Origin: Liolophura sinensis
Taxonomy: Eukaryota > Mollusca > Polyplacophora > Chitonida > Chitonidae
Direction of reading: 5' to 3'
Length of the DNA: 64,000 nt
Assembly (NCBI RefSeq): GCF_032854445.1
Contig: NC_088301.1
Location: forward strand, 3,658,001-3,722,000
The notes under the pieces: generated by a model
Told to the model about the DNA's origin: nothing
The model's database searches: none
What the model saw: only the letters and a program-made list of their open reading frames with translations
Program-made: the position numbers and the translations under genes
In this document: in pieces, positions 544 through 48,035 of the stretch
Layout of the letters: every line of letters begins with the position of its first letter
Numbering within the stretch: the first letter of the stretch is position 1

Positions 544-3500
544 CTGGTTTAATGCTAACCTCATCAATATTTTAAATACTTGCATATGCCAGACACCATA
601 CGATTAAATGATGGATACTAGAATTTTTTTTTTTTTTTTATGTATTAAGCCAGCAATCTGACCAAAAGAACAAAACAAAAACCTACCCCATCCTCCCACC
701 ACTTTCTTTACAGGTCTGCTGGGTCTCTAACAACTTTACGACTATTCTCACCAATTTTCTTCAGTGCAGTGATGACACATTCTCTGTACTGTTTGTTGCT
801 TTCATCAGATTCTACATCCTCAATCACCATTGGCTCAGATGCCTTCCTCATTTGCTGGGCCACCAAGTAGCCAATAGCCAACATTGAGCCATGCTGAACC
901 TCAAAACTCTGTGGAAAACAAGAAACACCAAACAGTTTTTATTCATTTATTTGACAGTTGTTTATAACAACATAGTCAAGAATTTTAAACTTTATGGTGG
1001 TATATAGATTTCATGTATGGGGGAAGCCAGATTGTACAAAACCACTGACCTCTGACAAGATACTGACAAACTCATCACATCATGACATCTGACACGTCAT
1101 ATTGCTGATCTTTAGTGAACTTCTACAAATGACCTGAACTTCTAATAAAGACTAGTATAACATGACTCACCTTTCCTGACAGATTACTGATGGACATCTC
1201 TATAATCCCCTAACTTATGAAACACACCTGGTATAACATGACTGACCTTTCCTGACAGATTACTGATGAACTTCTCTATAATCCCCTAATGTCTGAAACA
1301 CACCTGGTACAATATCACTGACCTTTCCTGACAGATTACTGATGGACTTCTCTATAATGCCCTGACTTCTGAAACACGCCTAGTATAACATGACTCAAAT
1401 TTCCTGACAGATTACTGATGGACATCTCTATAATCCCCTAACTTATGAAACACACCTGGTATAACATGACTGACCTTTCCTGACAGATTACTGATGAACT
1501 TCTCTATAATCCCCTAAGTTCTGAAACACACCTAATATAACATGACTGACCTTTCCTGACAGATTACTGATGAACTTCTCTATAATCCCCTAATTTCTGA
1601 AACACACCTGGTACAACATCACTGACCTTTCCTGACAGATTACTGATGGACTTCTCTATAATGCCCTGACTTTTGAAACACACCTCGTATAACATGACTC
1701 ACCTTTCTTGACAGATTACTGATGAACTTCTCTATAATGCCCTGACTTCTGAAACACACCTCGTATAACATGACTCACCTTTCCTGAAAGATTACTGATG
1801 GACATCTCTATAATGCCCAAACTTCTGAAACACACCTGGTATAACATGACTCACCTTTCCTGACAGATAACTGCTAGACTTTTCTATAATGCCCTGACTT
1901 CTGAAACACACCTAGTATAACATGACTCACCTTTCCTGACAGATTACTGATGAATTTCTCTATAATGCCCTGAACCTCGCACTGAGACCTGGTGTAACAT
2001 ATCGCAATGGCGTACAGCTGGGCGGCGTAGTTTCTCATATCCTCCTTACTGTTGAAGATGAAGGCCTGAAACAACAGAAAATGTGCAACTTAACATAATA
2101 CACTCATAGTGTAACTCTGAAAAACCAAAGACTCACCCTTACTCAGTATTTCAGTACTTTATTTTGCCATCATCAGTTAAGCTGTTGAGCTCTTCTGAGT
2201 TAACTGTGCAGCTTACCTACAACCACATGTAGATTGTGAGATTGGCCTAAATATGCAGACACATATCCACAATGCATTCTTTACTTCATGATTACACTTA
2301 GCTCTCTAGATACTAATTATCGAGACATAGTATAAATATTAACCTAATGTTTAATGCTTCATGAAAGAATTTTTCATTTACATAAAAGAGGCCAGGCCTG
2401 TCAAGTCTGTGGGTGGAGGAACATTCGCTTGAAACTGAGTTAACAGCCAAAGCACCGGCAGCTGGACGCTAAAACGCAGCCTCACCAGAAAAGTGCTGAA
2501 TATGCTAAAATCTGCAGCCTGCTCCAAAATGACGGCAGATAAATAGGAAATCTTCTGAACATTTCTGTGCATCTTTTTTCGCCTGACCCTCTGGCATACT
2601 CATACCCTTATACTATCATAATTTTTAAGAACTCAAAAAAATTTTTGTCATCAAGATCACAAAATGGAGCTATATTATATGTTTTTACTCTTTCACCTTG
2701 CTTTAAGAGCAAGCGAGTGCTTGTGGTTTAATGTCATAATTAGCAATTTTTCGTCATATGATGACGAAGGCATGTAATATGCTTCCTTGCATGATGGATT
2801 TCCACCGCTCTTTTATCTAGTGCTGCTTCACTGAGATGATGTACCAAAGGCAAGTAAGCTGCCCCACCCGAGCCATTATACTGATATGGGTCAACCAGTT
2901 GTGGCACAATACCCTTAATGCTGAATGCCACGTGAGGAAGTTACAACTTCCTCGCCCCCCAAGCGGACGCTCTACCAACTAAGCTATCAGGGATGGTCCC
3001 TGTTTTAAGATATTCTTGCATTAAGCATTTAAGACCACAGCATGGAGTAATTTGTCTGTATTCATGGATATTATTTTCCTTCCTTGCAAAGCCTTATTTA
3101 AAAACCCTCATTGTAAACTGCATTTATGGAATACCACTATATTTGCACAAAATGTTTTGTTCATTGCCATACCTTGATCCAATCCAGATGTTCCCTAAAC
3201 TGAGAAGCTAAATGACCGCGAGCTGCAGCAAACACTTCTACCAGACAGAACATGGCTGGAGGACCTATAATGTCAAGGTCAAAGGTACAAAGAGTTGTAG
3301 ACAACTAAACCTGAATTACCAATTCAATACATTCTATCTGTATGGACAACCATACACTGTGGATGTAAGCCACTTCAGGCACACCTACATGACATGTCAG
3401 CTTAAACCAGCGATCAGATGATGAGGGATAGACTCATGTCTACTTTTAAACAAACTTGGAATCTGCCAAACTCAATACTTCAAATAGCAAACTCACATTG

Positions 3501-6500
3501 TGTTTAGATATAAACTCCAACGGTCCTCATGGGGTGTTTGATCACGCTGATATAGTGCTATATGTACATGTGGGTGGATCCTTCAAGGCTTAAGTCAGCT
3601 TTCAACAGACCCAGAATGTGCTTAGATATAAACTCACCTCCAATGGTTCTCAGCAGCTGTGTGATCAGATGTATGTATTGCTGAACGGGCCAGGTAAAAC
3701 TTGGATCAAATTTCAACAGACTCAGAATGTGTTTAGATATAAACTCACCTCCAATGGCCCTCAGCAGCTGTGTGATCAGATGTATGTATTGCTGAACAGG
3801 CCAGGTGGAACTTGGATCAACTTCCAGCAGACTCAGAATGTGTTTAGATATCAACTCACCTCCAATGGCCCTCAGCAGCCGTATGACCAGATGCATGTAT
3901 TGCTGCACGGGCCCTGTGGGACTTGGATCAACTTTCAGCAGACTCGGAATGTGTTTAGAGATTCAGAATGTGTTTAGACATAAACTCACCTCCAATGGCC
4001 CTCAGCAGCTGTGTGATCAGATGTATGTATTGCTGAACGGGCCAGGTGGAACTTGGATCAACTTTCAGCAGAGTCAGAATGTGTTTAGATATAAACTCAC
4101 CTCCAATGGCCCTCAGTAGCTGTGTGATCAGATGTATGTATTGCTGAACAGGCCAGGTGGAACTTGGATCAACTTTCAGCAGACTCAGAATGTGTTAAGA
4201 TATCAACTCAACTCCAATGGCCCTCAGCAGCCGTATGACCAGATGCATGTATTGCTGCACGGGCCCTGTGGGACTTGGATCAACTTTCAGCAGACTCAGA
4301 ATGTGTTTAGAGATTCAGAATGTGTTTAGATATAAACTCACCTCCAATGGCCCTCAGCAGCTGTGTGATCAGATGTATGTATTGCTGAACAGGCCAGGTG
4401 GAACTTGGATCAACTTTCAGCAGAGTCAGAATGTGTTTAGATATAAACTCACCTCCAATGGCCCTCAGCAGCTGTATGATCAGATGTATGTATTGCTGCA
4501 CAGGCCCTGTGGGACTTGGATCAACTTTCAGCAGACTCAGAATGTGTTTAGCTATGATGGGAGAGTCAGCTTGCATGGAATTCAGGGACTCCAGGTTGGG
4601 TTTCACTCCTGCATCATTTGCGAGACACATCCTAAGGTACATCAGCATCTACAACGCAATCACCACATATACAGAAAATCTATAATTTCATGAAATTTTA
4701 ACCGCCTAACCCCTCTGCTTTGTGAACTGTAGTACTGCTGTTTCCTGTTTTGAGTACTTTGGCCCAACAAACTTGATTTATCTCGATAATTAGAGAGCTC
4801 TGGCCCATCAATGAAAACCCATGAGGTTTGTTCAGACACTAAATAAAGTTCAAAAAATGTTTTGCACTGACAAACTGTTTGTTTGTTTATTTCATTCTTT
4901 GACACCATACTTAAGAATACTCCCCTTATGCGCTGACAGTCAGTTTCATTGGTGGAAGGAACAAATTGTCCAAGCCAAGCCACTGAGCTTTTATGTACAC
5001 AATATCGGTGGAAGAGAGACCGGTCCTCAGTACAAGTTAGATTGCATAAATGCCAACACCACCATCATTGACAGTCACCAACAGCCTCATGAACAGTAAA
5101 AGCGATGGAATCTGTCCATTCCCAGACTAATTCCAGTATTGAACCCACACTTTGTTTGTCCTAGTGATACCAAATTGACACCCAATGATGACATTTGTTT
5201 ACTTCATGACTGGAGGACCTGAATTAGCTTACCTCTCCATAGGTGACCGGGTTGAATGGTAGCACATGTGTACCAATGGCATATGTCTGATTGCTGGACA
5301 GTCTTTCCTTAGCCTGGAGTGAATAAACAAAAAACACCATTACCACTTATCTTTCTGACTGGTAAAACACAGGTGATTTCTTATCTACATACATCATATG
5401 AATGTTCTTGTTCAGGAAAAAGCCTTGTTTTGTTTTCTTTTTTAATTGTACAAACAAAATACAACTACATGAAGAAAACTAGGGAGGAATATCATATCCG
5501 CACTGGAATATTGTTGGAAAATGGAACTTTCTGAACAGGAAAAACATGACTAATCTTTTAAAAAGTAAACGCACACTAACACTCACCCATAAGCCTTCTT
5601 TTGCTACAGGTTCAGAATGAAGGAACTGATTAGTGGACATGGTAGACATGTGATCAATGTAGAAGATCATTCGACAAGTGCCATGGTCACTCCACTGGAA
5701 GTGGTAGATTTGTTCGTCTGGCAGGTTTCATGCTTCAGTCTGGTTATGACAGTATAATGACTTACCTTGCCAGTGATGTAGGTGACCATGTTCTCAAACT
5801 TTGGCAGCTGAGCCGACTCGTGAGTGACCTCTGGCTTCTCATGCTCATCATCTTTGGGTAATGACCTCAATGCCTTCACAGCCTCTGAGTATATCTCCTC
5901 TTTACTGCAATATGAGCAACAAAATCTCATATTCCAAACTGATTTTTGACGACAGATAACGCCAAGCCTCAGGAATGAGTTACATGTATAGGGATATTCT
6001 CATGGTTTTTGATTGGTTGTATTTTACAACTGAATAGTATCTCTAGTACCCCTCGGGTACGTTGGTTGTGTTAAAATGCACTTTCAGAAGCACATAAAGG
6101 TCTTAAAAGATACTTTTGATGCCAAAAGTCAAGTTTTTCTGATAAGAAAATCACACTTCACAAAAAAAACTCTTACATGACCTAATATTACAGGCGGATG
6201 AATCAATCAGAATCCAGCAAAGTGGGTTACCTGAAGAAAACTAAACCTTTACGTGAAATGGAGTATTCAACAATAAACCCAGAAGTTGTACATGATCGTA
6301 CTCTGAAGGTTAGTCTCCTGATATATTCTGACACAGCAACCATCTCAACAGGTGCCTCATGTACTCACACGTCCCCACAGGCCAGAAGCAGGAGGTAGCG
6401 TGAAGACACATGGTCTGGGGGGAACACCATCTGGGAGTATTTGACCGCCATGATCCGTGCCTGAGGCTCATCCTGGAGGTGGGGACACAAACCACCAAAA

Positions 6501-9500
6501 TACATGTTAGCTTCTGTCATTAAATCATACTTTGAAAGCAGAAAACTAATACATAGGACATGATATGTAACTCTCCTGTGAAAGAAAGACGTACATGTAT
6601 GTTATATAATGGAATTGTCAGTCTGCTAAGCATCTAGTATACTCACTGTACTTCAAAACTGCTTCTAACATGTACATGTCACTTATAAACTACTACATGT
6701 AGTATTCTTGTTATTTCTCCCAGAAATAAAAACTTTTTTCTCAAAGTCAAAAATTAAATAAAAACATATACTTAAAAAAAATCAACAGATTTTACACCTC
6801 TCAGAAAATCAGTAGATGTCTATGCAGGAGTCAAAGCACAAAACCATAAGGCATAGTCTTTCCCATTAGCCAAGATGCCTATTTTTTCCATAGCTTAGAC
6901 AAATAAATGTTGCTTAGATACACATACATCTGTAAATCCATCATCCTTAAGTGGCTAGAAATACATTATACAAATGAACACTCATACTCCTGAAAAAAAT
7001 GGAGAGAAAAGTGGTCTACACGGCTGAGAAGCCAAGCTATTTCTCCTTGTTCAGGACAAACTTGGTAGGCCCCAAGCAGCTCATCATGAAAAATGAAAAA
7101 ACTGATCTACATATACTAGAATGAAAGAATTGAATTGAGAATAAACTGAACGATTATTGCTGAATGCCATTTCTCAATACTGCAGCCAGGTCATGGTGAG
7201 AACATGCTTAAACTGAAGGCACCATAAACACATAATAAACCACAGCAATCAAACTGAGCACTGCTCACAAATCGCAATCACCTTTTCAAAGTTTTGTATA
7301 ATAAGAGCTTCCATGAGCATCTTATTGGTGTTGTCCATGTTCCTAAAGGCAGAGGACAGGATGGAGAGGGCCTCCTGTACACCAAGTCGCGTCTCACTGT
7401 CCTCCTACAGAACACAAGGTACCCCATTATACCCCATCAGTGTAATCATGATCTAAAATCAATGCCAGGAATTCTTTATTTTGAACATTTATATTTTCTT
7501 TTTTGTTTTGGTTTTTTTATACATATTTTACTCCACAGAACTTCACTTTATAGCATGGTGATCAGGTATATGGATGAACAAAAAAATGAAGTAGAAGTAG
7601 AAAGTGCAAACCTCAGCACCTTTGCCAGAAACCTGACACACCTCCTGACACATCTATGTGTATGGGCAACCTCACTGGCTCAGTGTATGGGCAACGTCAC
7701 TGGCTCAGTGTATGGGCAATCTCATTGTCTCAGAGTATGGGCAACCTCACTGGCTCAGTGTATGGGCAACCTCACTGGTTCTGTGTATGGGCAACCTCAT
7801 TGTCACAGAGTATGGGCAACCTCACTGGCTCAGTGTATGGGCAGCCTCACTGGTTCTGTGTATGGGCAACTTCACTGGCTAAGTGTATGGGCATCCTCAC
7901 TGGTTCTGTGCATGGGCAACCTCACTGGCTCAGTGTATGGGCAACCTCACTGGTTCAGTGTATGGGCAGCCTCACTGGCTAAGTGTATGGGGAACCTCAT
8001 TGGCTCAGAGTACGGGCAACCTCACTGGCTCAGTGTATGGGCAACCTCACTGGCTAAGTGTATGGGCAACCTCACTAGCTCAGTGTATGGGCAACCTCAC
8101 TGGTTCAGTGTATGGGCAACCTCACTGGCTCAGAGTATGGGCAACCTCACTAGCTCAGTGCATGGGCAACCTCATTGACTCAATGTATGGGGAACCTCAC
8201 TGGCTCATTGTGTGGGGACCTCACTGTCTCAGATTGTTCAAGCTACAGCTTGCTGTGACTATCAGGCCACTGACCAACTCGGACACGTATATGAGTCCTA
8301 CTACATTGTTCTGGCTGCGGCTGTAAGTCAGGAGGTTTGTCAGATACCTGGTGAAGGTCGATGGTTTACTCCAGACAATCGGGTCTCTTTATACATACTG
8401 TGGATATAGCATCAAAAAACCTCTGTGCCAGCCCTACGTCATTGGACACTAGAGAGGGCAAACGTTTTCCTAACTTCCCCACAGCCACATAAGCTAGGTT
8501 CCTTAACTTTGCATCCTGAAAATTAAACATAAACTGTCATCTCAGGATATGAAATTTCAATACCACAATGTTCTGTACCTCCCTTCCAGAAGATTTCCTT
8601 TATTTGTCGGTACAAAATTCTCAAGAGAGACTATTTAGTAACATTTCATCCACTAGACGATGCAGTGGTAAAACTGAATTTATTCTTTGGAGGTCAAAGT
8701 AATTCAAACACTTCACACTTATAAAACTGTCAGAAATGTTATTGTGTGACCTTTTCTAGAAGAGAAAAATGGAAAAAATATACATACTTGTTGAAGTGAA
8801 GCATTCCCTTTTGAATTCAATTAATGTTTTAATAGACCATATTTACCCTAATTCTTCAACCTTATCACACATGAAAGAGTAACTTTCAGTGCAATTAATG
8901 CACATTTTTAATTTGATTTTGGAGACTAAACAACATTGGTTGGATTGGCTTCACAAAAAGTTTAATTTTATTGGTGAACACAGAATGAGGCCTTCAAAAT
9001 ATGCTCGAATAAACATTTTACAAGTAAGTGAAAAGGCTGAAGAATTACAGTTGGCCCAATACCGTAACAAGGAAGGCAGAAGTGCACACGTACCTCCTTG
9101 TTATCACGTATGAGGTTTAACATGCCAGATATCAACACCTGACCAATGGCTCCCAAGTTTTCATCTGTACAACTACAACAACAGGTGATATGTATGTAGG
9201 TGTATACATCAAAATAGTCTGTGGTTTTCTGTAGTCTGTAGTCTTATCACGAAAATGTTAACTTCATATTAAAGACAAAACCCTTTTATCATATATGGAC
9301 AGAAAAAAACAGCATGACCCATGGCATATTGTTAGCAACCGAATAAAAGACTGAAACTCATTTGATAAAAGCATATTAATTTTGAGAAAATATAAGAGGG
9401 GATTAAAGAGGGGATTTTTAACTCTGGCTTATAGTTTTCTGATGAACTGACAGTCATACAAATTGATCAGAAATAAACCCAGAATGAATGAATGAATGAT

Positions 9501-12500
9501 TATGGCTTAACGCCAAGTTAGCAATATTTCAGCCATATTGTGATAAACCCAGAACAAATGAGATTCCAAATAAGACTTAAATTTACCAATATCTGAAATG
9601 TTAGCAGCCATAATAATATGCAATGCATACATGCATACTTCCAGCATATAACCAAAAGACAGACAGACTTACTAGAGGCACATGTGATGAACAAACTGTA
9701 CAGCATATTTCTTCAGCTTCTGGTGGGTATTAGCTCCATACATACACTCAAACACCGCCTGGAAACAGAATACATCTTGTAAACACCATGCTCAATTTTT
9801 CCATCATATGATGACAGTCAGTGCTATTGGTGGAGAAAACCAGAGTATGGATAAATGACTGACCTTTGGTAAGTTTACTGACCAGCTTTCAGATACGCCC
9901 ACCCAATTCGGGGAAGACAAATGGCCTGCAATGAATGTCAGATAGCGTACATAGCCACATGAGAATTGTCAACCACTTTCTGTCATCAAGACGTCGATGA
10001 ACAGTGAGAGCAGGGGATTTACTAATTCTCTGTCCAAAGCCAGGATGGGGGGTGGGGGTGGGGGGGGGGGTTGGGCAAGAGTTAGAGGGAGGCCTTCAGC
10101 TTAACTCATGAACTGACTGCCTGGAGGAAACATGTTCGCTGCTTTGTGGGACATGTGGACCTGAGGATGAGGAAAGGGTTGATGTTTGTCATTTTTAATG
10201 CAGTAACAAAGAATTTCTAACTTACACATGATGGCACTCAGGTTTTTCATGGGCAGAATAAACCGGAGTGCAGGGGGTATACCGATGGGCCAGAGTGCCC
10301 ACCGACCTTTGGCAAGTTAATCATGAAGAACTTTGCCGCATGACATACATGTACCAACTCCATATTGGTGGAAGACAAGTGGTCTTCAACAAATGTTAGA
10401 CTGAGTAAACAGTACTAATAGTATTTTTGGCCATTTTATTGTCTACAGCTCTCTACACTGAGGGTGGGGGAATCTACAAATCTGTGACTAAACCACGTCT
10501 TGGAGGGGATGTTGAAGACGGCTCCAGCTTAACTCACATGTATGATCAAATGTTAGGGAGGGAGAGCCTGAGAGAAAGTACAGGCAACCTCACAAGACTT
10601 GAGGATTTGGGGGAAGATCTTCAGCTTATTATAAACTCAGATGTTAACACTGCATCTGGCTTACCTGAACAGCCTGGGGGAAACTGTTGGCAGCCTCACC
10701 AGACTCAAGGATTTGGGGGAAGATCTTCAGCTTATTATAAACTCAGGTGTTAACACTGCATCTGGCTTACCTGAACAGCCTGGGGGAAACTGTTGGCAGC
10801 CTCACCAGACTCGAGGATTTGGGGGAAGATCTTCAGCTTATTATAAACTCAGGTGTTAACACAGTATCTGACTTACCTGAACAGACTGGGGGAAAGTGCT
10901 GGCAGCCTCAATGGACTTGAGGATTTGGGGGAAGATCTTCAGCTTATTATAAACTCAGGTGTTAACACTGCATCTGACATACCTGAACAGCCTGGGGTAA
11001 TGTGTTGGTAGCCTCGCGGGACTTGAGGATTTGGGGGAAGATCTTCAGCTTATTATAAACTCAGGTGTTAACAATGCATCTGACTTACCTGAACAGCCTG
11101 GGGGAAACTGTTGACAGCATCACCAGACTCAAGGATTTGGGGGAAGATCTTCAGCTTATTATAAACTCAGGTGTTAACACAGCATCTGGCTTACCTGAAC
11201 AGCCTGGGGGAAAATGTTGGCAGCCTCGCGGGACTTGAGGATTTGGGGGAAGATCTTCAGCTTATTATAAACTCAGGTGTTAACAATGCATCTGACTTAC
11301 CTGAACAGCCTGGGGTAATGTGTTGGTAGCCTCGCGGGACTTGGGGATTTGGGGGAAGATCTTCAGCTTATTATAAACTCAGGTGTTAACAATGCATCTG
11401 ACTTACCTGAACAGCCTGGGGGAAACTGTTGACAGCATCACCAGACTCAAGGATTTGGGGGAAGATCTTCAGCTTATTATAAACTCAGGTGTTAACACAG
11501 TATCTGACTTACCTGAACAGCCTGGGGGAAAATGTTGGCAGCCTCGCGGGACTTGAGGATTTGGGGGAAGATCTTCAGCTTATTATAAACTCAGGTGTTA
11601 ACACAGTATCTGACTTACCTGAACAGCCTGGGGGAAAGTGTTGGCAGCCTCACGGGACTTGAGGATTTGGGGGAAGATCTTCAGCTTATTATAAACTCTG
11701 GTGATAACACAGCATCTGGCTTACCTGAACAGCCTGGGGGAAAGTGTTGGCAGCCTCACGGGACTTGAGGATTTGGGGGAAGATCTTCAGCTTAACTCGG
11801 GTGCTAACACTGGTCCTGATGTGAGCTTTGTTTGTGTTTGATTTCTGAAGCACGCAAGTGAAAAAGCGAAAACAAATTACATCGACAAGCAAATTTACAC
11901 AAGGAGAAAGAATTTATTTATTTATTTGATTGGTGTTTTACGCCGTACTCAAGAATATTTCACTTATACGATGGTGGCCAGCATTATGATGGGTGGAAAC
12001 CGGGCAGAGCTCGGGGGAAACCCACGACCATCTGAAGGTTGCTGGAAAACCGTCCCACGTACGACCAGAGAGGAAGCCAGCATGAGCTGGACTTGAACTC
12101 ACAGCGAACGCATTGGTGAGAGACTCCTGGGTCATTACGCTGCGCTAGTGCGCTAACCAACTGAGCCACGGAGGCCCCTAAGGAGACAGAATGATGAATA
12201 AATGACACAGATAAAATCTATAATATTATAATCATAACTGCTAGTCAATAAAAACGAAGTAATAAGTCAGATGCCTTGATCCTTGTAAACAAATCCTACA
12301 TGAATAACTATCAAAACCCAATGAAACTTATCACAACAGACTCAAGTACTGCACAATTTACTTTACAGGTAATTCAAAGTTTCAGCATTTATACTTGCAG
12401 TTGTATGTAAGTTAATATTTTAGATTACCTGTCCCTTTAAGAGAATAGTTCCAAGAAACAGGTCAAAGAGCTTCTTAACTATCACAGGATCATTCCAGTC

Positions 12501-23130: not shown

Positions 23131-23134
23131 ATGA
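23081..23134 (+). other. Upstream ORF overlapping the mucolipin start codon (ATGA)
   Basis: An ATG at 23081 opens a 17-codon frame whose TGA (23132-23134) overlaps the mucolipin ATG (23131-23133). A second ATG at 23091 in another frame ends after ten codons. Relevant only if transcription starts upstream of 23081, which cannot be seen here. Confidence 0.45.
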
Positions 23135-38300: not shown

Positions 38301-41300
38301 CATGCCAACTTTAAAGTGAACATTCATTCAGTCAATCAGTTGATGTGTATATACATGTACTTACATATAGCTGCACTGTGTCCATAATGGCTGTTAGGAT
38401 GTCTTCACCTTATCAATCACTCTGCATAGGTAGATCTACATGTACGTGCAGTGTGTCTCTAGAAACTCCTGTATGATGTTTTCAGTCGGTCAGTCATTTT
38501 CTCTACATGTACATTGTGTCAGCAAAATCTTTTACGATATTTTCAGAGTGTTTCTTTGTGCACAAAGTCGCAGTTTTCAATTCCACCACAAATCGTACAG
38601 AGATGGTTTACGATATTCAGAAGTTCCTGGAAGAAAAGAACAAATCCCTGAACTTTGACAGGTTTGTACTAAATCTTGTGTTCTGAGAGCTCTTCTAGTA
38701 TCAGCAATTGTAATACATGCATAACACTCAGACCACATCAATCATTTACTAATGTATGGTTTTCAGGCTCTTGGAGGTACAGTTGAAGTTTGCCCTGAAG
38801 TCTGTGAATTTAGAAACATACGCTCAACGTGCCGCACCCGAGTGTTACAAGTTTAATATAACTGTGAGTAATCCCCACTTTCAGCTTGCCACATGCCTGT
38901 TCAGTCCATTCGATCACCAAAGCAAAATAATTAGCATTTTTGATTTTATGCCCATGTTGTTTCCTCCCATCATAATGCTGGCCGCCATCGTATAAGTGAA
39001 ATATTTTTGAACACGACATAAAACACCTACCATATAAATGAACAAATAGATAAATTATTTCCATGTTCTGAGGGATAATTATTTATCATGGACTTATACT
39101 GCTGTGTTAGTATGACTTACTGGACATCTGTATTCAAGGGGAGATAACACTGTCCATCTTAAGGGTCTGATGCAGAAAAAATGTTACAGTTTGTTACCAG
39201 CTTAACTCAAAAGCTGTTAAGTTTTATACTGAACACAGCTTAAAACATTTTCCGTCTGGCAGCAACCTGCGTATGGTTGTGGGTTTCCACTGGGCTCTGC
39301 CCGGTTTCCTCCCACCATAATGCTGGCCGTCGTCCTATAAGTGAAATATTCTTGAGTATGGTGTAAAACACCAATCAAGTAAATAAATAAAATTAAAACT
39401 TTTTCACCATTATTAGAAAAAGGGTCAAACCAAGAATGGCCGTTCAAAGTTTACCAGTTCCATGAATGATTGTGACATGAACATTTTCCTAAGGTATTGC
39501 AGCATTTTGCTCACGTTGTAAACTACAAGTACATCGCTCAGGTGAATGTTCACTATGTCCTCCTCAAAGTAGTCTCATCTTTCCGGTCTGTCTACGTGTT
39601 TAAGTTGACCTTTTTGCCCAGGATTTATCAACCCAGTTATTGTCAGATTTTTATGTATGTAACACCAAAGAAGGGGAGATGGTGAGGGCAGCTCCATTCC
39701 AATCAGTGATGTGTGCCAAAACTAAATACATATATATTAAAACCAAAAAAAAATATCGTCAGTCAATACAGCACTGAAATATACACATGTATAGAAAGAC
39801 ATAAAAGCCAAAAAATGTATACATATTTTATGTTTTTAATTTAATTTTTTTTTATTTATTTCATTGGTGTTTATTCCATCAGGAGTAATAAGTATTTTAA
39901 TTGGATAAAGTCAAATATGACTTGTGTACAGCCCATAACATTGAAAAAGAACATTGCATACTTGAATTTGAGTTGAATTCACCCAAGGGGTATCAGAATT
40001 CAGAAAATTATATACATATTAATAACCCAGGCAAGATGTAAAATTCAAACGGTATAAATCAACTTCAGATTGATTAGGCTAAGAAAAGGCAGCTAGTAAA
40101 ATGGAAGATCTGCCATTTTGATTTGCCATTTTTATTCATATATTCACCGGACTAAAGTTTATAATAGAGATAGTGTTCGTCTGGTAGAAAAAATAATTAA
40201 TATTTGCAAAACAAAATATTGCATAACAATATTGTATAAAACATAAACTTCTGAGAATCTGTCCCAAAACCTGTTATATCACATAGAAACAAGAACCAAT
40301 CCACCCACAACATATACACCTGCCGTGAAAATGCACATATGTAGTATGTATTATTTTTGTATTGTTTCTTGCAGATAACTTTTGACAACAATGACCATGA
40401 TGGTCAGATGTTAGTAGAACTGGATACTTATGTCTCAGCGCTTGTCTGTAAAGGGGAGATCATTTATAAAGGTATGGTTATTGGAACTGGATACTTATGT
40501 CTCAGCGCTTGTCTGTAAAGGGGAGATCATTTATAAAGGTATGGTTATTGGAACTGGATACTTATGTCTCAGCGCTTGTCTGTAAAGGGGAGATCATTTA
40601 TAAAGGTATGGTTATTGGAACTGGATACTTATGTCTCAGCGCTTGTCTGTAAAGGGGAGATCATTTATAAAGGTACGGTTATTGGAACTGGATACTTATG
40701 TGTCAGCGCTTGTCTGTAAAGGGGAGATCATTTATAAAGGTATGGTTATTGGAACTGGATACTAATGTGTCAGCGCTTGTCTGTAAAGGGGAGATCATTT
40801 ATAAAGGTATGGTTATTGGAACTGGATACTTATGTCTCAGCGCTTGTCTGTAAAGGGGAGATCATTTATAAAGGTATGGTTATTGGAACTGGATACTTAT
40901 GTCTCAGCGCTTGTCTGTAAAGGGGAGATCATTTATAAAGGTATGGTTATTGGAACTGGAAACTTGATATACTGTTTCATCTGTACTTGTGTTCTATCAC
41001 ATAAACCATCAAGCAAATAATTATCAAGTGAATAATTTATGTGTTTCACATTAGGATTTTCAGACATCAGTGGTTTTGATACCTGTTGATCCGAGTGTTA
41101 CTTTTGATCAATTTTTATGAAGCTTGGCCCAGTGGTTGCTTATGTTATCCATGTTGTGTTCATGTTGATGATTGTCAGTCTGTGTGTTTCAGCCGATAAT
41201 GATGCACGTCGGCGAGAGCTGACAGCGTTTGACGCTATGGTGATGATGGTCAGTCTGCTGTCCTGTCTGCTCTGTATTAGGTCATTAGCCAGGGCACAGA

Positions 41301-44300
41301 AACTTAAGATGGTATGTGATTTCGGTTCTGTATCAGACCCTTAGCCAGGGCACAGGCACTAAACATGGTATGTGGTTTTGGCATGAAAATGTGGTTATTC
41401 AGTTTGAACATGGAATTGTGGACAATGTGAATATTTGAGGAAAGTCCCTTGTGGGCCCGTGATAAAGAAGGTAGTGCTATATTTCATTGTTTAGCGTGTA
41501 CCTGTTTCCATAAGACTGTACTAAATCTTCGTGATTACTACAGAAAATGTGCATCTATATCAGTGAAATAAAACAAAATCAGTGTATTTCCAAATGCTGA
41601 AGTGACATTTCGATATTCTGTATTGATCAGGAGTATGCCAATAACAAGAATGTACACATTTACTTTTATACACAAGAGTGACAATGGTAAATATTAACAA
41701 AGCATTGGTGAGAAATATACAGCTTATATGTATATGGTAGCTAAGATATGAATAGAATGTTCACCTCAGGTAATAGGAAGATTGCATGGAAGGGTGAACT
41801 CAAAATGAGTGGAAAAAGAACGAAAAGAAAAGCGTGGATATAATGACTAATGGCTCTAATGCCTTCATTATTTAGAGTTTTGTTATATATAAAACAAATA
41901 GTGTTGTATTTCAATAAAATGAATAAATAAGTGTGTTTAAAGTGCCAGTCTTTTTTTCTGTTTTTGTGCAGGAGGTTGCTAGATACTTCAAAAACAAACA
42001 CAACAAAACCCTGGGCACATCCGACAGACTTGAGTTCTGGAACTTTTGGTATGTGCTGATCATATGTAATGACATCCTTACTGTAGTCGGAACCGCGTTC
42101 AAGATACAACTGGAAACTAAGGTAAGTCAAGGTTGAGATAAAGCCATAAGATAAGGGCAGGTCAGTGACCCATCCAAGCCGTTATGGTCGACCTTTCAGC
42201 ATTACATGGCTTCTCTCCTTGGAATCAGAGTAATAATAATTTATACCTAATACAATTTTGATTAATTAACCTAATTGTAAAACTCTTCCATAAGAATTTC
42301 ATTCAAGTTTGTGGCACTGTGAGACGATAATAAGGACTTGAAAACCCACCTTCGAATGTGTGTACATGTTTATGTAGTTTTTATTGGCCAGTCGTGGAAG
42401 AACAAATTTTTGGTTTTACATTTTCAGCGTGCACAGAGTTCCTCAGAGAACTATGACCTGTGCAGTATGATGTTAGGAACAGGAAACCTCATGGCCTGGT
42501 TCGGTGTGTTAAGATATCTGGGCTTCTTTAAAAAGTATAATGTAAGTAACCTAGACATTTTACAGGGAAAGACATTTTCTAATGTTAGACTGATAGGCAT
42601 CTAAGCCTGGGCATACAGAGCAGCTTAAACCCTGGCAACCCAAAACACCAATCTACAGGGCCATATAGACCAGGTGGTTTATGTCTGCAGGGCCATATAG
42701 ACCGAGTGGTTTATGTCTGCAGGGCCATATAGACCCGGGTGGTTTATGTCTGCAGGGCCATATAGACCGAGTGGTTTATGTCTGCAGGGCCATATAGACC
42801 AGGTGGTTTATGTCTGCAGGGCCATATAGACCGGGTGGTTTATGTCTACAGGGCCATATAGACCAGGTGGTTTATGTCTGCAGGGCCATATAGACCGGGT
42901 GGTTTATGTCTGCAAGGCCATATAGACCTGGTGGTTTATGTCTGCAGGGCCATATAGACTGGGTGGTTTATGTCTGCAGGACCATATAGACTGGGTTGGT
43001 TGTGTCTGCAGGGCCATATAGACCAGGTGGTTTATGTCTACAGGGCCGTATAGACCAGTTGGTTTATGTCTGCAGGACCATATAGACCAGATGGTTTATG
43101 TCTGCAGGGCAATATAGACCGAGTGGTTTATATCTGCAGGGCCATATAGGCCGGGTGGTTTATGTCTGCAGGGCTATATAGACCGGGTGGTTCTGCAGGG
43201 CCATATAGACCAGGTGGTTTATGTCTGCAGGGCCATATAGACTGGGTGGTTTATGTCTGCAGGGCCATATAGACCAGGTGGTTTATGTCTACAGGGCCAT
43301 ATATACCAGATGGTTTATGTCTGCACAGCCATATAGACCAGGTGGTTTATGTCTGCAGGGCTATATAGACCTGGTGGTTTATGTCTGCAGGGCCATATAG
43401 ACCAGGTGGTTTATGTATGCAGGGCCATATAGACTGGGTTGGTTATGTCTGCAGGGCCATATACACCAGGTGGTTTATGTCTGCAGGGCCATATAGACCA
43501 GGTGGTGTATGTCTGCAGGGCCATATAGACCAGGTGGTTTATGTCTGCAGGGCCATATAGACCAGGTGGTGTATGTCTGCAGGGCCATATAGACCAGTTG
43601 GTTTATGTCTACAGGGCCGTATAGACCGAGTGGTTTATGTCTGCAGGGCCATATAGGCCGGGTGGTTTATGTCTGCAGGGCTATATAGACCGGGTGGTTC
43701 TGCAGGGCCATATAGACCAGGTTGTTTTTTTTCCGGCATTGCCATGTAGACTGGGTGGTTTATGTCTACAGGGCCGTTTAGACAAGGTGGTTTATGTCTG
43801 CAGGGCCATATAGACCAGGTGGTTTATGTCTACAGGGCCATATAGACCAGGTGGTTTATGTCTGCAGAGCCATACAGACTGTGTGATTTATGTCTGCAGG
43901 ACCATATAGACCGAGTGGTTTATGTCTGCAGGGTCATGTAGACCGGGTGGTTTATGTCTGCAGGGCCATATAGACCAGGTGGTTTATGTCTGCAGGGTCA
44001 TGTAGACTGGGTGGTTTATGTCTACAGGGCCGTTTAGACAAGGTGGTTTATGTCTGCAGGGCCATGTAGACCAGGTGGTTTATGTCTGCAGGGCCATATA
44101 GACCAGGTGGTTTATGTCTGCAGGGCCATATAGACCAGGTGGTTTATGTCTGCAGGGCCATATAGACCAGGTGGTTTATGTCTGCAGGGCTATGTAGACC
44201 GGGTGGTTTATGTCTGCAGGGCCATATAGACCTGGTGGTTTTTGTCTGCAGAGCCATATAGACTGGGTGGTTTATGTCTGCAGGGGCCATGTAGACCGGG

Positions 44301-47300
44301 TGTGTGTGTCCATGTATGGACTCTTCTTTAGAAGACTTCTCCTTGTACATTTTGTGTAAAATTGTTTGATTTAACCTACTTGACCAAAGTCACAACTCTA
44401 AGAAACGACATTCTCGACAGATTTCTCTCTTTCTGTATTTTGAGTGATCTTTAGGAATCATGTTCCGAAATATAGAACTTCTCGGAGTTGAGACTTTGGT
44501 GAACTATGTAAAACTGCTGATATTATTCACAGCATATAAATTTCTCTTTGCCTACAATCACATTACGTGTGTTTAAATCTAATCAACATGACTAATATAT
44601 CTTTGTGTACATGTATATAAATGTGCAAAGATTTTTATGATTGTTTCAGATTTTAGTGTTGACATTAAAAAGGGCATTTTCCCAATGTGCTGCGGTTCTC
44701 TGTCTGTGCTCTGATGTTGTACTGTGGGTTCCTTTTCTGTGGCTGGGTCGTTCTTGGCCCCTATCACATCAAGGTAAAGATAATGGCTCACAATGCTCCC
44801 AGCAAAGCTGTTCTGTGCTGGGTCGTTCTGGGCACCTATCACATCATTGTAGAGGTAAGGCCTACAGTACTCCCAGCAAAGCTGTTCTGTGGCTGGGTCG
44901 TTCTAGGCCCCTATCACATCATTGTAGAGATAATGGCCTACAGTACTCCCAGCAAAGCTGTTCTGTGGCTGGGTCGTTCTGGGCACCTATTACATCATTG
45001 TAGAGATAATGGCCTACAGTACTCCCAGCAAAGCTGTTCTGTGGCTGGGTCGTTCTAGGCCCCTATCACATCATTGTAGAGATAATGGCCTACAGTACTC
45101 CCAGCAAAGCTGTTCTGTGGCTGGTTCATTCATCATAAAATCCTATCATAAAATGTGCATGACATCCCAAGTACACAGGTTGTTCCTATCACACTGTGGC
45201 CACTGCTTGGATGTGTTTCACTCTCTAAAATCTTCATATTCCACATACCTGTGTTCCAGGGTAATTTATCACCTGATGATCTTATTTGACCCACATTAGA
45301 TTTGCAGCATACCTGTAGTTGTAGCTTTCTGTTAAGATATTCCCTAACCTTGAAATATTCTTTGATGTTAAAGTATTCTCAGCCTTTGAAGTATTTTCTG
45401 ACCCTTGCCCTATCCTTTTATCACAGTTCCGTCACCCAAGCTCTACCTCTGAATGTCTGTTTTCGCTAATCAATGGTGACGACATGTTTGTAACCTTCTC
45501 GGCCACCCAGACCAATAACAACTACATATGGTACTACAGCCGAATTACCTCTACATCTTCATCAGTCTTTTCATCTATGTTGTGCTCAGTCTCTTCATCG
45601 CAGTCATCATGGACACCTACGAAACCATCAAGGTGAGCTTAAGCCCAAGCTTCTTTGTTTTGCTTTTCTCCTTACGGTAAAAAATTGTACAAATTGTACA
45701 GATAGGGACTGGTCCGCAGCCGTATATAAGGAGGTTTACCTTGTAGCCGCTGGGTTACTCTGGTTTTCCTCTGACTGACTAGTTTCCTTCACTCACACAA
45801 CAGAGCACCATTGTAAAATAGAAATAACGTTAAGTACAACGCGCTCTGACACTGATCAGATAAATAAATAAATGCCAGAAGACCTGTCAAGGTTCCAACA
45901 TTCAGAGACTTTTTCATTTATATTCAGAGACTCAACAATTCCTTTGCTTCCATTCTCAATTCCAGCTCCCATTGGTTTCTGCTATTAGTTTTAGTCAGAT
46001 TTGTCAGATACCTGGGTATGAAGAGTGGTGGTCCACTCTGGGTTTCTCTACCCATAAGCCTGATGACCAACGGTTATGTAACAAATTTTTCTGTGCGATG
46101 GATTAAATAAATAAAGAAGGGAAGTTCATTTGTTTACTTTTGAGATCATGACTTACATGTATCAAATTCATACATTGGGACATTTTGGTATGGTGCATAC
46201 TACATTGTGTCAGCATTCAGTCACTAGATGACCACAATATGGCTGCGGCAACACCATAATCATTTGGTCATTGACTGATATTCATGTACTAGAAAGTTTA
46301 ATCGCACTGTTCTTACCAGACTAGTTAATTGCTCTCATAGATTCTGGAGTATTAATGGTTCCAAGGACTTTTACAGCATGCCACGTTACGTGTGTATCTG
46401 ATGTATTTTATTGTTGTGTGACAGCATGATTAATTTTGAACGGTTTTTCCTCCAGAATCTACATGTACTTCATCAGTTCTGTATTTGTCTGTTGATTGTT
46501 GTATTATACAGCAGTAGGCCTATTATTATGTTGTATTTACACTTTATGTTGCGCTTTACTTTGAAACTGTTGTTGTAATGAAGTACTTATATATTGTACT
46601 GTGTTGTGTTACACAACTGTTATATCGCATTACAGCACTCTTATTTTGTACTATATTGTATAACATAACTGTTGTGTTGTATTACAGTACTACTATGAAC
46701 ACGGTTTCCCCAAGAGTGAGCTTCATGAGTTTATGGATGAATGTACAGACCCACCCCACTCCCCACTCTACAGACGGGAGACTCGCGGCTGTAATTTCTT
46801 CTCCATGCTGCCCTGCTGTGGCAGGTAAGCCCTTCAAGTGAACTCTGATTATAGTAGTGTGTTATACAAGTAAAGTGGGATGTGCAGTCATTTGACGAGA
46901 AGGGTTAATAGGCAGTAGTAGCCTGGGCTCTGTAAACAGTAGCCTGAGCTTTATAGACAGTAGCCTGGGCTCTATAGACAGTAGCCTGGGCTCTATAGAC
47001 AGTAGCCTGAGCTCTGTAGACAATAGCCTGAGCTCTATATACAGTAGAGAGTAGCATGTGCTCTATATACAGTAGCTTGGGCTCTATAGACATTAGCCTG
47101 TGTTATATGAACAGTAGCCTGGCCTCTGTAGACAGTAGCCAAGGCAGTATAGATAGTAGCCTGAGCTCTATAGACAGTAGCCTGGGCTCTCAAAACTGTA
47201 GCCTGAGCTATATTGACCATAACCTGAGCTCTATGGACAGTTGCCTGGGCTCTATAAACAGTTGCCTGAGCTCTATAGACATTTGCCTGAGCTCTATAGA

Positions 47301-47794
47301 CAGTAGCCTGAGCTCTATAGGCAGTTGCCTGAGCTCTATAGACAGTAGCCTGAGCTCTATAGACAGTTGCTTGAGCTCTATAGACAATAGCCTGAGCTCT
47401 ATAGACAGTAGCCTGAGCTCTATAGACAGTAGCCTGAGCTCTAAAGACAGTTGCCTGAGCTCTATAAACAGTAGCCTGAGCTCTATGACTTTATTCACTA
47501 CTTTGTCATTATATCACTTGTTGAATATGAACCTTGGTATTGGTAAGCAGTGCTGATCTGATTCACAACAGTGCAATTTTTGCCTACAATGTTTTTTTCA
47601 GCTCAACTATGATCTGACCCACTGTGCTAGTGTGTGTTATTTTAAGCACTAACTTTATGACTCAGTGAAAATTGATACTAACTTTACATATATGACTCAT
47701 TGGGATATAGTTTTGCAGTTTTAACATCTGATGTGTTTGTTATTTCAGGTCAGATCCTGACACACCTAATGAGCGCACCAGGCTGTTACAGTAA
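23131..47794 (+). CDS. MCOLN: Mucolipin (TRPML) lysosomal cation channel, 14 exons, about 700 residues
   Basis: Mucolipins are six-TM, PI(3,5)P2-gated Ca2+/Fe2+/Na+ release channels of late endosomes and lysosomes. In order, the product has a long N-terminal tail, a basic segment (RLRRKLKFFFMDPCEKWKAK), TM1, a large lumenal domain with the four cysteines of the family (LCK, ECF, ECY, VCK) and several N-glycosylation sequons, TM2-TM5, the pore motif SLINGDDMFVTF, TM6, and a C-terminus with the acidic dileucine signal ERTRLL just before the stop. At about 700 residues it is longer than human ML1 (580), mainly in the N-tail. All junction phases close. Two single-base shifts (an extra T in exon 11, a missing base in exon 12) break the literal frame. 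The ATG at 23131 is the first in frame with the family sequence. Confidence 0.93.
23372..27260. other. Mucolipin intron 1, first part
   Basis: Non-coding as far as I can see. Holds the inverted-repeat element near 25000-25348. Confidence 0.5.
25000..25348. mobile_element. Possible MITE-like inverted repeat
   Basis: GGATGACCCCAAACCAACGT (about 25013-25032) is matched in inverted form by ACATTGGTTTGGGGCCATCC (25319-25338). Imperfect similarity extends inward for ~55 bp, enclosing ~240 bp. A related ACCCCAAACCAATGTCATAT occurs near 50230. Confidence 0.35.
27265..27735. repeat. 53-bp minisatellite, 7-8 copies
   Basis: GGATGGGTATGTTTTTGAGT, then AAGGAAGTATTCATCA, at 52-54 bp steps, decaying to the right. 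In mucolipin intron 1. Confidence 0.85.
28107..28198 (+). mobile_element. SINE 3' end
   Basis: TTTTCTCCCACCATAGTG, TGAAATATTCGTGAGTACCG, AAAACACCAATCAGATAAAT. Confidence 0.8.
28600..28770. repeat. 42-44 bp tandem repeat, four copies
   Basis: Unit TGACATCATGTATGAGCAGT then GTGC(A/C)GAGTGCTGAAG. AGCAGTGTG at 28623, 28665, 28709 and a variant at 28753. Confidence 0.8.
29751..29802 (+). CDS. Candidate alternative first exon of mucolipin
   Basis: An ATG opens MPSASEELESTTDWQNG and runs into AAGTAAGT. The frame ends in phase 1, the same as exon 1, and would join exon 2 to give a shorter N-tail. Support is only an ATG, phase and a good donor in intron 1. Confidence 0.3.
29803..31630. other. Mucolipin intron 1, middle
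   Basis: No exon or element recognised apart from the candidate exon just upstream. Confidence 0.4.
31636..31870 (+). mobile_element. Old, nearly full-length SINE
   Basis: GAGTGGTTAGTGTGCTAA (decayed box A), TTTCAAGTCCAGCTCATGG (box B region), GGGCTCTGCCTGGTTTTCC, ACCATAATAAATC, AATATTTCACTA. Confidence 0.75.
32932..33975. repeat. 30-bp minisatellite, about 35 copies
   Basis: Unit GCTTATACAAATTGTTTTAT then G(C/T)ATCAGCAG in mucolipin intron 1. Because 30 is a multiple of three, several frames stay open on both strands for up to 317 codons. A cluster of variants (YASAG/YASGG-type) shows larger repeated blocks. Confidence 0.95.
34255..34515. repeat. 121-bp direct duplication plus a partial third copy
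   Basis: TGTCTTAAAA(A/G)CCATGGATGT through GCAATTTTCAGGTAAATG occurs twice, 121 bp apart. A third start (GCTGTCTTAAAAG) follows. Confidence 0.85.
34516..36461. other. Mucolipin intron 1, last part
   Basis: A 145-codon open frame at 35716-36153 has no recognisable domain. Otherwise no recognised content. Confidence 0.4.
36462..36772 (+). CDS. MCOLN: Mucolipin exon 2 (N-tail, basic segment, start of TM1)
   Basis: Residues 81-184. Acceptor ATCTTTCAG, donor GTGAGA. Contains RLRRKLKFFFMDPCEKWKAK, the counterpart of the phosphoinositide-binding basic region, and LGLQVLKILLLTIQ of TM1. Confidence 0.93.
37029..37220 (+). CDS. MCOLN: Mucolipin exon 3 (end of TM1, lumenal domain)
   Basis: Residues 185-248 (LATFGYERSNFVEFVERNTV, then SFKHLFLKGWD). 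Acceptor ACTTCCAG, donor GTAAGA. Aligns with the N-T-I-A-F-R-H-L-F-L-type segment of human mucolipin. Confidence 0.93.
37221..37876. other. Mucolipin intron 3
   Basis: No recognised content. Confidence 0.45.
37877..38030 (+). CDS. MCOLN: Mucolipin exon 4 (lumenal domain)
   Basis: Residues 249-299 (YEQTPLIALGGFRVIRD, then NGSALPVQLCKVTYAVG). Holds the first conserved lumenal cysteine and sequons NGS and NNT. Acceptor GTTTCAG, donor GTATTG. Confidence 0.92.
38547..38661 (+). CDS. MCOLN: Mucolipin exon 5 (lumenal domain)
   Basis: Residues 300-337 (ECFFVHKVAVFNSTTNRTEM, then FLEEKNKSLNFD). Second conserved cysteine; sequons NST and NRT. Acceptor ATTTTCAG, donor GTTTGT. Confidence 0.9.
38767..38863 (+). 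CDS. MCOLN: Mucolipin exon 6 (lumenal domain)
   Basis: Residues 338-370 (LLEVQLKFALKSVNLETYAQ, then APECYKFNIT). Third conserved cysteine, like DCYTF in human ML1. Acceptor GTTTTCAG, donor GTGAGT. Confidence 0.93.
38958..39054 (+). mobile_element. SINE 3' end
   Basis: TTTCCTCCCATCATAATGCT, CGTATAAGTGAAATATTTTT, AAAACACCTACCATATAAAT. In mucolipin intron 6. Confidence 0.8.
39255..39390 (+). mobile_element. SINE 3' half
   Basis: TCTGGCAGCAACCTGCGTAT, GGGCTCTGCCCGGTTTCC, CACCATAATGCTGG, AACACCAATCAAGTAAATAA. Confidence 0.88.
39391..40374. other. Mucolipin intron 6, right part
   Basis: AT-rich. Contains a weak SINE-tail resemblance near 39845-39895 (TTTATTTCATTGGTGTTTAT). No exon seen. Confidence 0.4.
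40375..40471 (+). CDS. MCOLN: Mucolipin exon 7 (lumenal domain; source of the 67-bp array)
   Basis: Residues 371-402 (ITFDNNDHDGQM, then VCKGEIIYK). ITFDN is shared with human mucolipin; fourth conserved cysteine. Acceptor TTCTTGCAG. The first of eight tandem GTATGG-type donors is called, because only its length (phase 1) joins exon 8. Confidence 0.9.
40472..40965 (+). repeat. 67-bp tandem array of mucolipin exon 7 end and donor
   Basis: Donor positions 40472, 40539, 40606, 40673, 40740, 40807, 40874 and 40941, exactly 67 bp apart. Each unit is 55 nt of exon end (TATGTCTCAGCGCTTGTCTG, then GAGATCATTTATAAAG) plus 12 nt of intron (GTATGGTTATTG). Copies are almost identical, so the array is young. 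67 leaves remainder one on division by three. Confidence 0.95.
41193..41311 (+). CDS. MCOLN: Mucolipin exon 8 (TM2)
   Basis: Residues 403-442 (TAFDAMVMMVSLLSCLLCIR, then SLARAQKLKM). Acceptor GTGTTTCAG, donor GTATGT. A diverged second copy of the exon end plus donor follows 56 bp downstream. Confidence 0.92.
41312..41375 (+). repeat. Second copy of mucolipin exon 8 end and donor (56 bp)
   Basis: TTAGCCAGGGCACAG recurs 56 bp after the exon copy and ends CATG followed by GTATGTGGTTTTGG, like the true ATG then GTATGTGATTTCGG. An older, two-copy example of the pattern. Confidence 0.8.
41376..41971. other. Mucolipin intron 8
   Basis: No recognised content beyond the duplicated donor at its start. 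Confidence 0.45.
41972..42121 (+). CDS. MCOLN: Mucolipin exon 9 (TM3)
   Basis: Residues 443-492 (EVARYFKNKHNK, then RLEFWNFWYVLIICNDILTV). Acceptor TTTGTGCAG, donor GTAAGT. Matches the R-L-E-F-V-N-G-W-Y-I-L segment of human ML1. Confidence 0.94.
42428..42541 (+). CDS. MCOLN: Mucolipin exon 10 (TM4)
   Basis: Residues 493-530 (YDLCSMMLGTGNLMAWFGVL, then RYLGFFKKYN). Acceptor CATTTTCAG, donor GTAAGT. Confidence 0.94.
42650..44310. repeat. 32-bp minisatellite, about 50 copies, in mucolipin intron 10
   Basis: Unit GGGCCATATAGACCAGGTGG then TTTATGTCTGCA. Each copy contains TTTATGTCTGCAG followed by G, which resembles a 3' splice site. It lies between exons 10 and 11 and is not similar to either. 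Confidence 0.95.
44650..44773 (+). CDS. MCOLN: Mucolipin exon 11 (TM5), with a +1 shift
   Basis: Starts ILVLTLKRAF and, one frame over, continues NVLRFSVCALMLYCGFLFCG, then WVVLGPYHIK. The switch lies at the GCATTTTCCC run (about 44677-44686), where one T is extra. Length is 124 although both flanks are phase 0, so 123 is expected. Acceptor TTGTTTCAG, donor GTAAAG. Tandem copies of the exon end follow. Confidence 0.9.
44774..45125 (+). repeat. 74-76 bp tandem array of mucolipin exon 11 end and donor
   Basis: AGCAAAGCTGTTCTGTG at 44801, 44875, 44951, 45027 and 45103. Units contain exon-end sequence (GGCTGGGTCGTTCT, CCCCTATCACATCA) followed by the donor position. The first extra copy keeps GTAAGG; later ones read GATAATGG and have lost GT. 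Confidence 0.92.
45427..45632 (+). CDS. MCOLN: Mucolipin exon 12 (pore and TM6), with a -1 shift
   Basis: Starts FRHPSSTSECLFSLINGDDM with the pore filter NGDD, and continues one frame over as YLYIFISLFIYVVLSLFIAV, then IMDTYETIK. One base is missing near 45541-45543. Length is 206, with 207 expected from the phases. Acceptor ATCACAG, donor GTGAGC. Confidence 0.92.
45715..45875 (+). mobile_element. Diverged SINE-like element with TAAA tail
   Basis: GGTTACTCTGGTTTTCCTCT, GAAATAACGTTAAGTACAAC, ACTGATCAGATAAATAAATA. Structure fits a second SINE family; assignment is weak. Confidence 0.5.
46010..46115 (+). mobile_element. SINE-like tail fragment
   Basis: GGTTTCTCTACCCATAAGCC and GATTAAATAAATAAAG suggest another short retroelement end. 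Confidence 0.35.
46688..46824 (+). CDS. MCOLN: Mucolipin exon 13 (cytosolic C-tail)
   Basis: Residues 641-685 (YYYEHGFPKSELHEFMDECT, then FFSMLPCCG). The Cys-rich end corresponds to the LLCCCG palmitoylation motif of human ML1. Acceptor TATTACAG, donor GTAAGC. Confidence 0.92.
46900..47490. repeat. 21-bp minisatellite in mucolipin intron 13
   Basis: About 28 copies of CCTGAGCTCTATAGACAGTA plus G, with variants (CTGGGC, TTGCC). Being a multiple of three, it leaves frames open on both strands. Not similar to exon 13 or 14. Confidence 0.93.
47749..47794 (+). CDS. MCOLN: Mucolipin exon 14, C-terminus with dileucine signal
   Basis: Residues 686-700, SDPDTPNERTRLLQ then TAA. ERTRLL fits the acidic dileucine consensus [DE]xxxL[LI] used for lysosomal sorting, in the same place as in human ML1. 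Acceptor TTATTTCAG. The last codons begin a 30-bp tandem array. Confidence 0.93.
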
Positions 47795-48035
47795 CAACCC
47801 ACCTGTTCCCAACTTTTAATTTTGATTCACCTGTTCGCAGCTGTTACAGTAACAACTCACCTGGTCCCGACTGTTACAGTAACAATTCATGTATTGTACA
47901 GCTCACCTGTTTCCGACTAGATACAGTAACAGTTCATGTATTCCCAACTGTTACAGTAACAACTTACCTGTTCTTGACTGTTACAGTAACAGCCTACATG
48001 TTCCCGACTGTTACAGGAACAACTCATGCGGACAT
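47783..48035 (+). repeat. 30-bp array built from the mucolipin stop-codon region
   Basis: CTGTTACAGTAACAAC, the last three codons plus TAA of mucolipin, recurs near 47841, 47871, 47948, 47978 and 48008 at ~30 bp steps, with degenerate copies between, joined by CACCTGTTCCCGA. Confidence 0.88.

Follow-up and report, generated by a model that had tools for sequence, protein, structure and literature searches.

Tandem arrays of exon ends and splice sites in two neighbouring genes of a chiton

In the human CBS gene, a 31-bp variable number tandem repeat (VNTR) named c.1444_1467+7 occurs in 16-21 copies, and by this name each unit joins 24 exonic nt to 7 intronic nt (PMC2630376). Another human VNTR, with a 25-bp unit, starts at the exon 18 donor in intron 18 of ABCA7, and an isoform that keeps one of its units makes up ~2 ± 1% of transcripts (PMC5954066; the source gives two percentages, taken here in their order). 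Here we describe related arrays in a 64,000-nucleotide stretch of the genome of the chiton Liolophura sinensis (NCBI RefSeq assembly GCF_032854445.1, contig NC_088301.1, positions 3,658,001 to 3,722,000), referred to throughout as the window, which contains the N-terminal part of ECPAS (ECM29) on its minus strand and a mucolipin gene on its plus strand. Tandem arrays whose unit is an exon end plus an intron start follow 6 of the 31 donors mapped in these two genes, and acceptor-spanning arrays occur elsewhere in the same genome. We consider it likely, at a probability of about 0.7, that the arrays are minisatellites that began as short tandem duplications across an exon-intron boundary and were tolerated since the splice site nearest the exon works.

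The window arrays resemble the CBS VNTR in that an exon end and an intron start are repeated in tandem. The settings differ: CBS presents one human donor with a polymorphic copy number, whereas the chiton arrays lie at several donors of two adjacent genes in one assembly. The ABCA7 VNTR likewise starts at a donor, but its unit, as described, begins at the GT itself and holds no exon sequence, whereas the window units include exon. At acceptors the precedent is human CBS 844ins68 (c.844_845ins68), in which the intron 7/exon 8 junction is duplicated, but splicing goes to the distal site and yields a normal mRNA (PMC2630376); the paper's word for these sites is 'donor', and we read them as acceptors from the order of the intron/exon junction. 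It is a tandem duplication across a boundary with one copy in use, as we propose for the chiton arrays, and its counterparts here are the acceptor arrays L071 and L044 described below. Tandem duplication of an exon segment containing AG/GT, which carries splice signals with it, is also a described route of intron gain (PMC2891723, PMC4974935). There a new intron arises within an exon; in the chiton, by contrast, the intron pre-exists and the unit already holds intron sequence. We rejected intron gain of this type for the window arrays, as their units include intron past the donor and the introns continue beyond the array to a separate acceptor. Minisatellites are present in introns of earthworm metallothionein, with no exon-end units in the accessible part of that account. 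A search for a survey or a named class of boundary-spanning arrays, which left subscription journals largely aside, returned single-gene cases only. An earlier reading of this DNA from its letters alone (hereafter the sequence-only reading) knew of no named class for such arrays; we too found no name, but the CBS VNTR has the same type of unit.

Arrays at six donors of ECPAS and mucolipin

The two genes were identified by tblastn with human protein sequences, by a PDB match for mucolipin and by mollusc mucolipin homologues; the nearest named homologues of mucolipin are molluscan (Crassostrea, Haliotis, Saccostrea, Octopus and others), at ~50% identity. Exons were placed from tblastn matches, splice signals and reading frame, which gave 19 exons of ECPAS and 13 of mucolipin, with 31 donors and 32 acceptors between them. 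This map does not include the 5′ non-coding exons or an exon of ECPAS that falls between E5 and E7, and the E20 donor was positioned by a string match and its array status checked with Tandem Repeats Finder (TRF). Translation is free of stops through ECPAS E1-E5 and E7-E20 and through mucolipin T1-T9.

To find copies of exon ends, the last 120 nt of every exon were aligned locally with the following intron and compared with 30 shuffles each. Six donors, those of E8, E16, E18, T6, T7 and T10, scored 42-178 against shuffle maxima of 22-38; all others were negative. A second scan, for repeats crossing the boundary, returned the same donors minus that of the two-copy T7 array, added the stop codon of T13 and found no acceptor crossed; none of the 32 acceptors has an array at the level of the donor arrays. 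TRF recovers all six donor arrays, which start 39-103 nt inside the exon and whose units each include ~5-37 nt of intron (Table 1). Each unit thus holds an exon end, a 5′ splice site and an intron start, as in the CBS VNTR. The exon is the source of the copies: it is the exon copy that matches the protein best and keeps the spliced frame open (tblastn, spliced translation), and the coding exon end is the first copy. These are the donors that the sequence-only reading had named as ECPAS exons 9, 17 and 19 and mucolipin exons 7, 8 and 11, and alignment and TRF confirm all six and add no others; its totals of 34 donors and 33 acceptors become 31 and 32 in our map.

Is this number of contacts expected from arrays scattered through the genes? 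Arrays are abundant in the window, where 45 rows of TRF output were merged by hand into 23 arrays, and the 18 in the genic part were used for random placement. This gave 0.71-0.78 expected donor contacts against 6 observed (P of at least 6: at most 1e-4 with independent placement, 1.2e-3 with circular shift), and 0.76-0.83 expected acceptor contacts against 0 observed (P = 0.42-0.45). The donor count is the surprise, and the acceptor zero is uninformative because random placement itself expects less than one contact. The absence of acceptor arrays claimed by the sequence-only reading therefore stands for the window (0/32) but does not serve as evidence. We likewise set aside acceptor depletion as the key fact, the window being too small for it and acceptor arrays occurring elsewhere in the genome.

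An artefact of assembly would also give repeated exon ends, and some noise is visible in this one: T10 and T11 (45427-45632) of mucolipin each carry one apparent one-base frameshift, past which the protein match resumes in another frame. These frameshifts are probably assembly noise and possibly the mark of a damaged gene. As an explanation of the arrays, however, an artefact is very improbable, given that the copies differ by substitutions at constant spacing (for example 76 or 106 bp, with 0% indels) and that the same pattern appears on other contigs, at donors on C1, C3 and C12 and at acceptors on C2 and C8. A dispersed or introner-like element was rejected on the E8 unit, the one of the six window units that was searched, for which no second locus was found in the 609-Mb, 632-contig assembly by a search that skips very common words. 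Rfam gave no match at gathering scores.

Table 1. Exons and arrays of the window discussed in the text. Positions are those of the window; exon numbers in brackets are those of the sequence-only reading.
Feature	Positions	Strand	Remarks
ECPAS exon E18 (exon 19)	1931..2065	-	Donor at 1930; tblastn and exon map
E18 array	1155..1971	-	76 bp x 10.8; ~43 nt exon + 33 nt intron; donor of at least 6 bits in 9/10 intron copies
ECPAS exon E16 (exon 17)	4453..4648	-	Donor at 4452; tblastn
E16 array	3595..4555	-	Unit 111 bp, in steps of 111 and 130; donor kept in 6/7 copies
ECPAS exon E8 (exon 9)	11725..11844	-	Donor at 11724; tblastn
E8 array	10565..11794	-	106 bp x 11.6; ~70 nt exon + 36 nt intron; strong donor in 10/10 copies
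Mucolipin exon T6 (exon 7)	40375..40471	+	Donor at 40472; tblastn
T6 array	40410..40965	+	67 bp x 8.3, 98% matches; donor kept in 7/7 copies
Mucolipin exon T7 (exon 8)	41193..41311	+	Donor at 41312; tblastn
T7 array	41271..41378	+	56 bp x 1.9; 41 nt exon + 15 nt intron
Mucolipin exon T10 (exon 11)	44650..44773	+	Donor at 44774; tblastn
T10 array	44735..45131	+	76 bp x 5.2; 39 nt exon + 37 nt intron; donor context gone in 4/4 traced copies
T12 acceptor repeat, weak	46590..46691	+	TRF: 2 copies, 52 bp, 78% identity, 4 exon nt
Mucolipin last exon T13	47749..47794	+	3′ end is the stop codon
T13 stop-codon array	47783..48028	+	~30-bp unit; begins 12 nt ahead of the stop codon's end and extends into the 3′ untranslated region

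Copied donors and the reading frame

The arrays contain rows of copied donors, which we scored with a matrix built from the remaining 25 donors of the window (own scores 4.5-12.7), calling 6 bits or more strong. Among the traced intron copies of the window, 33 of 39 reach this level; the last listed E8 and T10 positions, being past the array or non-matching, are not counted in the 39. In six further arrays outside the window the figure is 78 of 87 copies (the copies of X37 are untraceable and L095 is outside the set), and over all 12 arrays it is 111 of 126. One of the further arrays, X33, could be followed for up to 40 copies, 34 of which still carry strong donors.

Such retention could mean that the rows are selected, tandem U1-binding sites downstream of the exon aiding splicing or protecting the transcript. 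Yet conservation of the donor motif does not clearly exceed that of the remaining unit sequence in the four arrays tested: the share of all 9-nt windows at least as conserved as the donor 9-mer is 0.59 in E8, 0.69 in E18, 0.85 in T6 and 0.22 in E16. The copied donors are therefore more likely retained through youth than through selection, and we rejected selection on them on this basis. The T10 array, whose true donor is weak (6.7 bits), points the same way, the donor context being lost in its traced copies. We thus regard selected donor rows as improbable, despite the 111 strong copies.

Another way in which the rows could matter is through the protein, with alternative donors lengthening it as a modular exon extension. 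The E16 array, with its 111-bp unit, is suited to this role: it alone has a second donor that would give an in-frame, stop-free extension, of 37 codons. In the other four of the five arrays whose frame can be read (T10 is unreadable), a stop precedes the second donor; the first stop past the donor lies at 33 nt in E8, 143 in E16, 54 in E18, 44 in T6 and 30 in T7. Nor do unit lengths favour multiples of 3, which occur in 4 of the 14 arrays, the share expected by chance. Early stops and unit lengths together led us to reject protein-coding expansion, which we find scarcely credible. Because a later donor is usually preceded by a stop, the first donor would have to dominate. This accords with the claim of the sequence-only reading that a duplication across a donor is tolerated while the first donor stays usable: the gene is otherwise open and stops lie before most later donors, from which the use of the first donor would follow.

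Donors and acceptors outside the window

Further exons of ECPAS lie outside the window, and arrays span 5 of their 18 donors (X22, X25, X31, X33 and X37) and none of their 18 acceptors. X33 and X37 came from the boundary-crossing scan only and X22 from the exon-tail scan only, and TRF confirms all five. The X39 acceptor, with a marginal crossing score of 40, was left out of the acceptor counts, and X40, another ECPAS match, was not placed as an exon, its donor not having been found.

A second set, from unrelated genes, consisted of 40 myosin-head and 30 kinesin exons on other contigs or far away. The myosin exons were picked by hand from 81 matches, some with internal stops; the kinesin exons are the first 30 of 132 matches by E-value, without internal stop and with an open frame of at most 125 amino acids. 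Each boundary was chosen for its splice-site score in the neighbourhood of the match; a number of these sites are weak (for example L046 and L094), and flanks were of 450 or 350 nt. Arrays span 3 of these 70 donors (L035, L066 and L095) and 2 of the 70 acceptors (L044 and L071), with no difference between the two ends (Fisher P = 1.0). L040 was left out as marginal, sharing 8 nt with the exon in an array 59 nt past the donor, and would make the donor count 4/70; L059 contains a duplicated exon rather than an array. L059 and L060 (G000:C1:26641745-26643836) match myosin-head 118-152 and 121-152 and lie ~1.1 kb apart, with another similar stretch ~0.4 kb downstream of L059; they are possibly duplicated, mutually exclusive exons.

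Both acceptor arrays are rows of acceptor copies. L071 (G000:C8:681821-682730) has a unit of 64 bp x 5.9 with 23-29 nt of exon start, and is the mirror image of the donor arrays, the acceptor and exon start being repeated ~6 times in the preceding intron. L044 (G000:C2:5378051-5379103) has a unit of 32 bp x 14.3 with 9 nt of exon start. The sequence-only reading inferred that duplications across donors are tolerated whereas one across an acceptor would lengthen the exon; these two arrays run against such a contrast, and CBS 844ins68, with its distal site used and its normal mRNA, shows that lengthening need not follow.

With the 18 ECPAS exons added to the window, ECPAS and mucolipin supply 49 donors (31 + 18) and 50 acceptors (32 + 18). 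All sets pooled, the discovery window included, donors are spanned in 14 of 119 cases and acceptors in 2 of 120 (P = 0.0016); leaving out the window gives 8/88 and 2/88 (P = 0.10), or 9/88 for donors with L040 (P = 0.057). The donor-side excess claimed earlier is thus present in ECPAS and mucolipin but not in the 70 myosin and kinesin exons, and a donor-only rule for the whole genome is not supported. Rows of donors, as the sequence-only reading proposed, do result: most copies in the window are intact, as given above. In each of five exon sets, arrays occupy 9-21% of the 350-nt flanks, and therefore the raw material for such contacts is common. For the family sample, a random-position model, which predicts crossings from the arrays within 350 nt of exons, expects 1.59 at donors and 1.55 at acceptors, and the 3 and 2 seen agree with it on either side.

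Origin of the arrays and the donor excess

We infer the mutational start, the copy in use and the neutrality of the arrays as follows. An ordinary tandem duplication of ~25-125 bp would include a boundary by chance, and the duplicated unit would then expand within the intron into a minisatellite. At a donor, the first copy, attached to the exon, would remain the working site, exon definition and transcript order being in its favour, and the remaining copies would leave with the intron; at an acceptor, in mirror image, the copy nearest the exon would be used. The copied splice sites would be passengers rather than selected parts. In minigenes with a pair of equal donors separated by 52 nt, splicing under exon definition goes exclusively to the upstream one (PMC9225289). 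Tolerance is plausible at both exon ends from the CBS, ABCA7 and minigene precedents.

Several observations weigh against this origin. In human alternative donors the downstream site is favoured in ~60% of events, and classical intron-definition assays likewise prefer the downstream donor (both PMC9225289). With longer ABCA7 VNTR alleles, exon 19 is skipped more often and expression falls (PMC5954066), and therefore such arrays need not be neutral. In ECPAS and mucolipin the random-position model expects 2.62 donor crossings where there are 11 (P ~1e-4), along with 0.57 acceptor crossings where there are 0; for the ECPAS exons outside the window it expects 1.21 donor crossings where there are 5 (P = 0.008). 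The donor rate of the two genes (11/49) is also higher than that of the family sample (3/70; P = 0.003). This ~fourfold excess at donors is beyond what tolerance and random duplication provide, and may come from a mutational bias tied to the locality or to the genes, or in part from luck and the choice of the window.

The excess could instead be the primary fact, 5′ splice sites of transcribed genes promoting duplication, strongly in some genes, with stalled transcription or R-loops, U1-bound pre-mRNA or exon-edge chromatin as possible causes. The contrast in the two neighbouring genes between 11/49 donors and 0/50 acceptors (P = 0.0002) favours such a donor-specific hot spot, as does the recurrence of the excess outside the discovery window, at 5 of 18 ECPAS donors. 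We nevertheless consider it unlikely, since the family sample has nearly equal counts at its two ends, acceptor-spanning arrays exist and the ~30-bp array at the T13 stop codon has the same geometry with no donor. The latter is one case, seen post hoc, in which the geometry is that of the donor arrays; a donor is therefore not needed for it. That certain genes or regions behave in this way, their 5′ splice sites giving birth to minisatellites at about one donor in 4-5 through a link to splicing or transcription while their acceptors are spared, is doubtful; if true, donor hot spots would supply natural rows of donors for testing donor choice.

The chiton arrays are a known kind of repeat, unusually dense in two neighbouring genes. 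A geometry familiar from VNTRs of single human genes recurs in the genome of an invertebrate, on the donor side and on the acceptor side. The arrays are natural rows of near-equal splice sites, only one of which is able to give normal mRNA, and so lend themselves to testing the rules of exon definition, transcript order and proximity. Their crowding in ECPAS and mucolipin poses a concrete question for a genome-wide count.

Some weaker signals and neighbouring repeats complete the picture of the region. At two acceptors of the window the alignment rises weakly above shuffles without reaching the boundary (T7, 33 vs 22; E15, 27 vs 20), and the T12 acceptor repeat, with its 4 exon nt, was left out of the acceptor-spanning counts. 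In a 264-kb region around the window (L009-L028), ~25% of the sequence (66 kb) lies in tandem arrays with a period of at least 10. The window itself contains an array with a 33-bp unit at 53194-60532, which runs for 7.3 kb in ~214 copies and has a strong strand bias in composition. At ~11914-12110 and in other places there is sequence that by eye looks interspersed and ends near 'TTGAGTACGGCGTAAAACACCAATCAAATAAATAAA', which we take to be a likeness to the tail of a short interspersed nuclear element (SINE).

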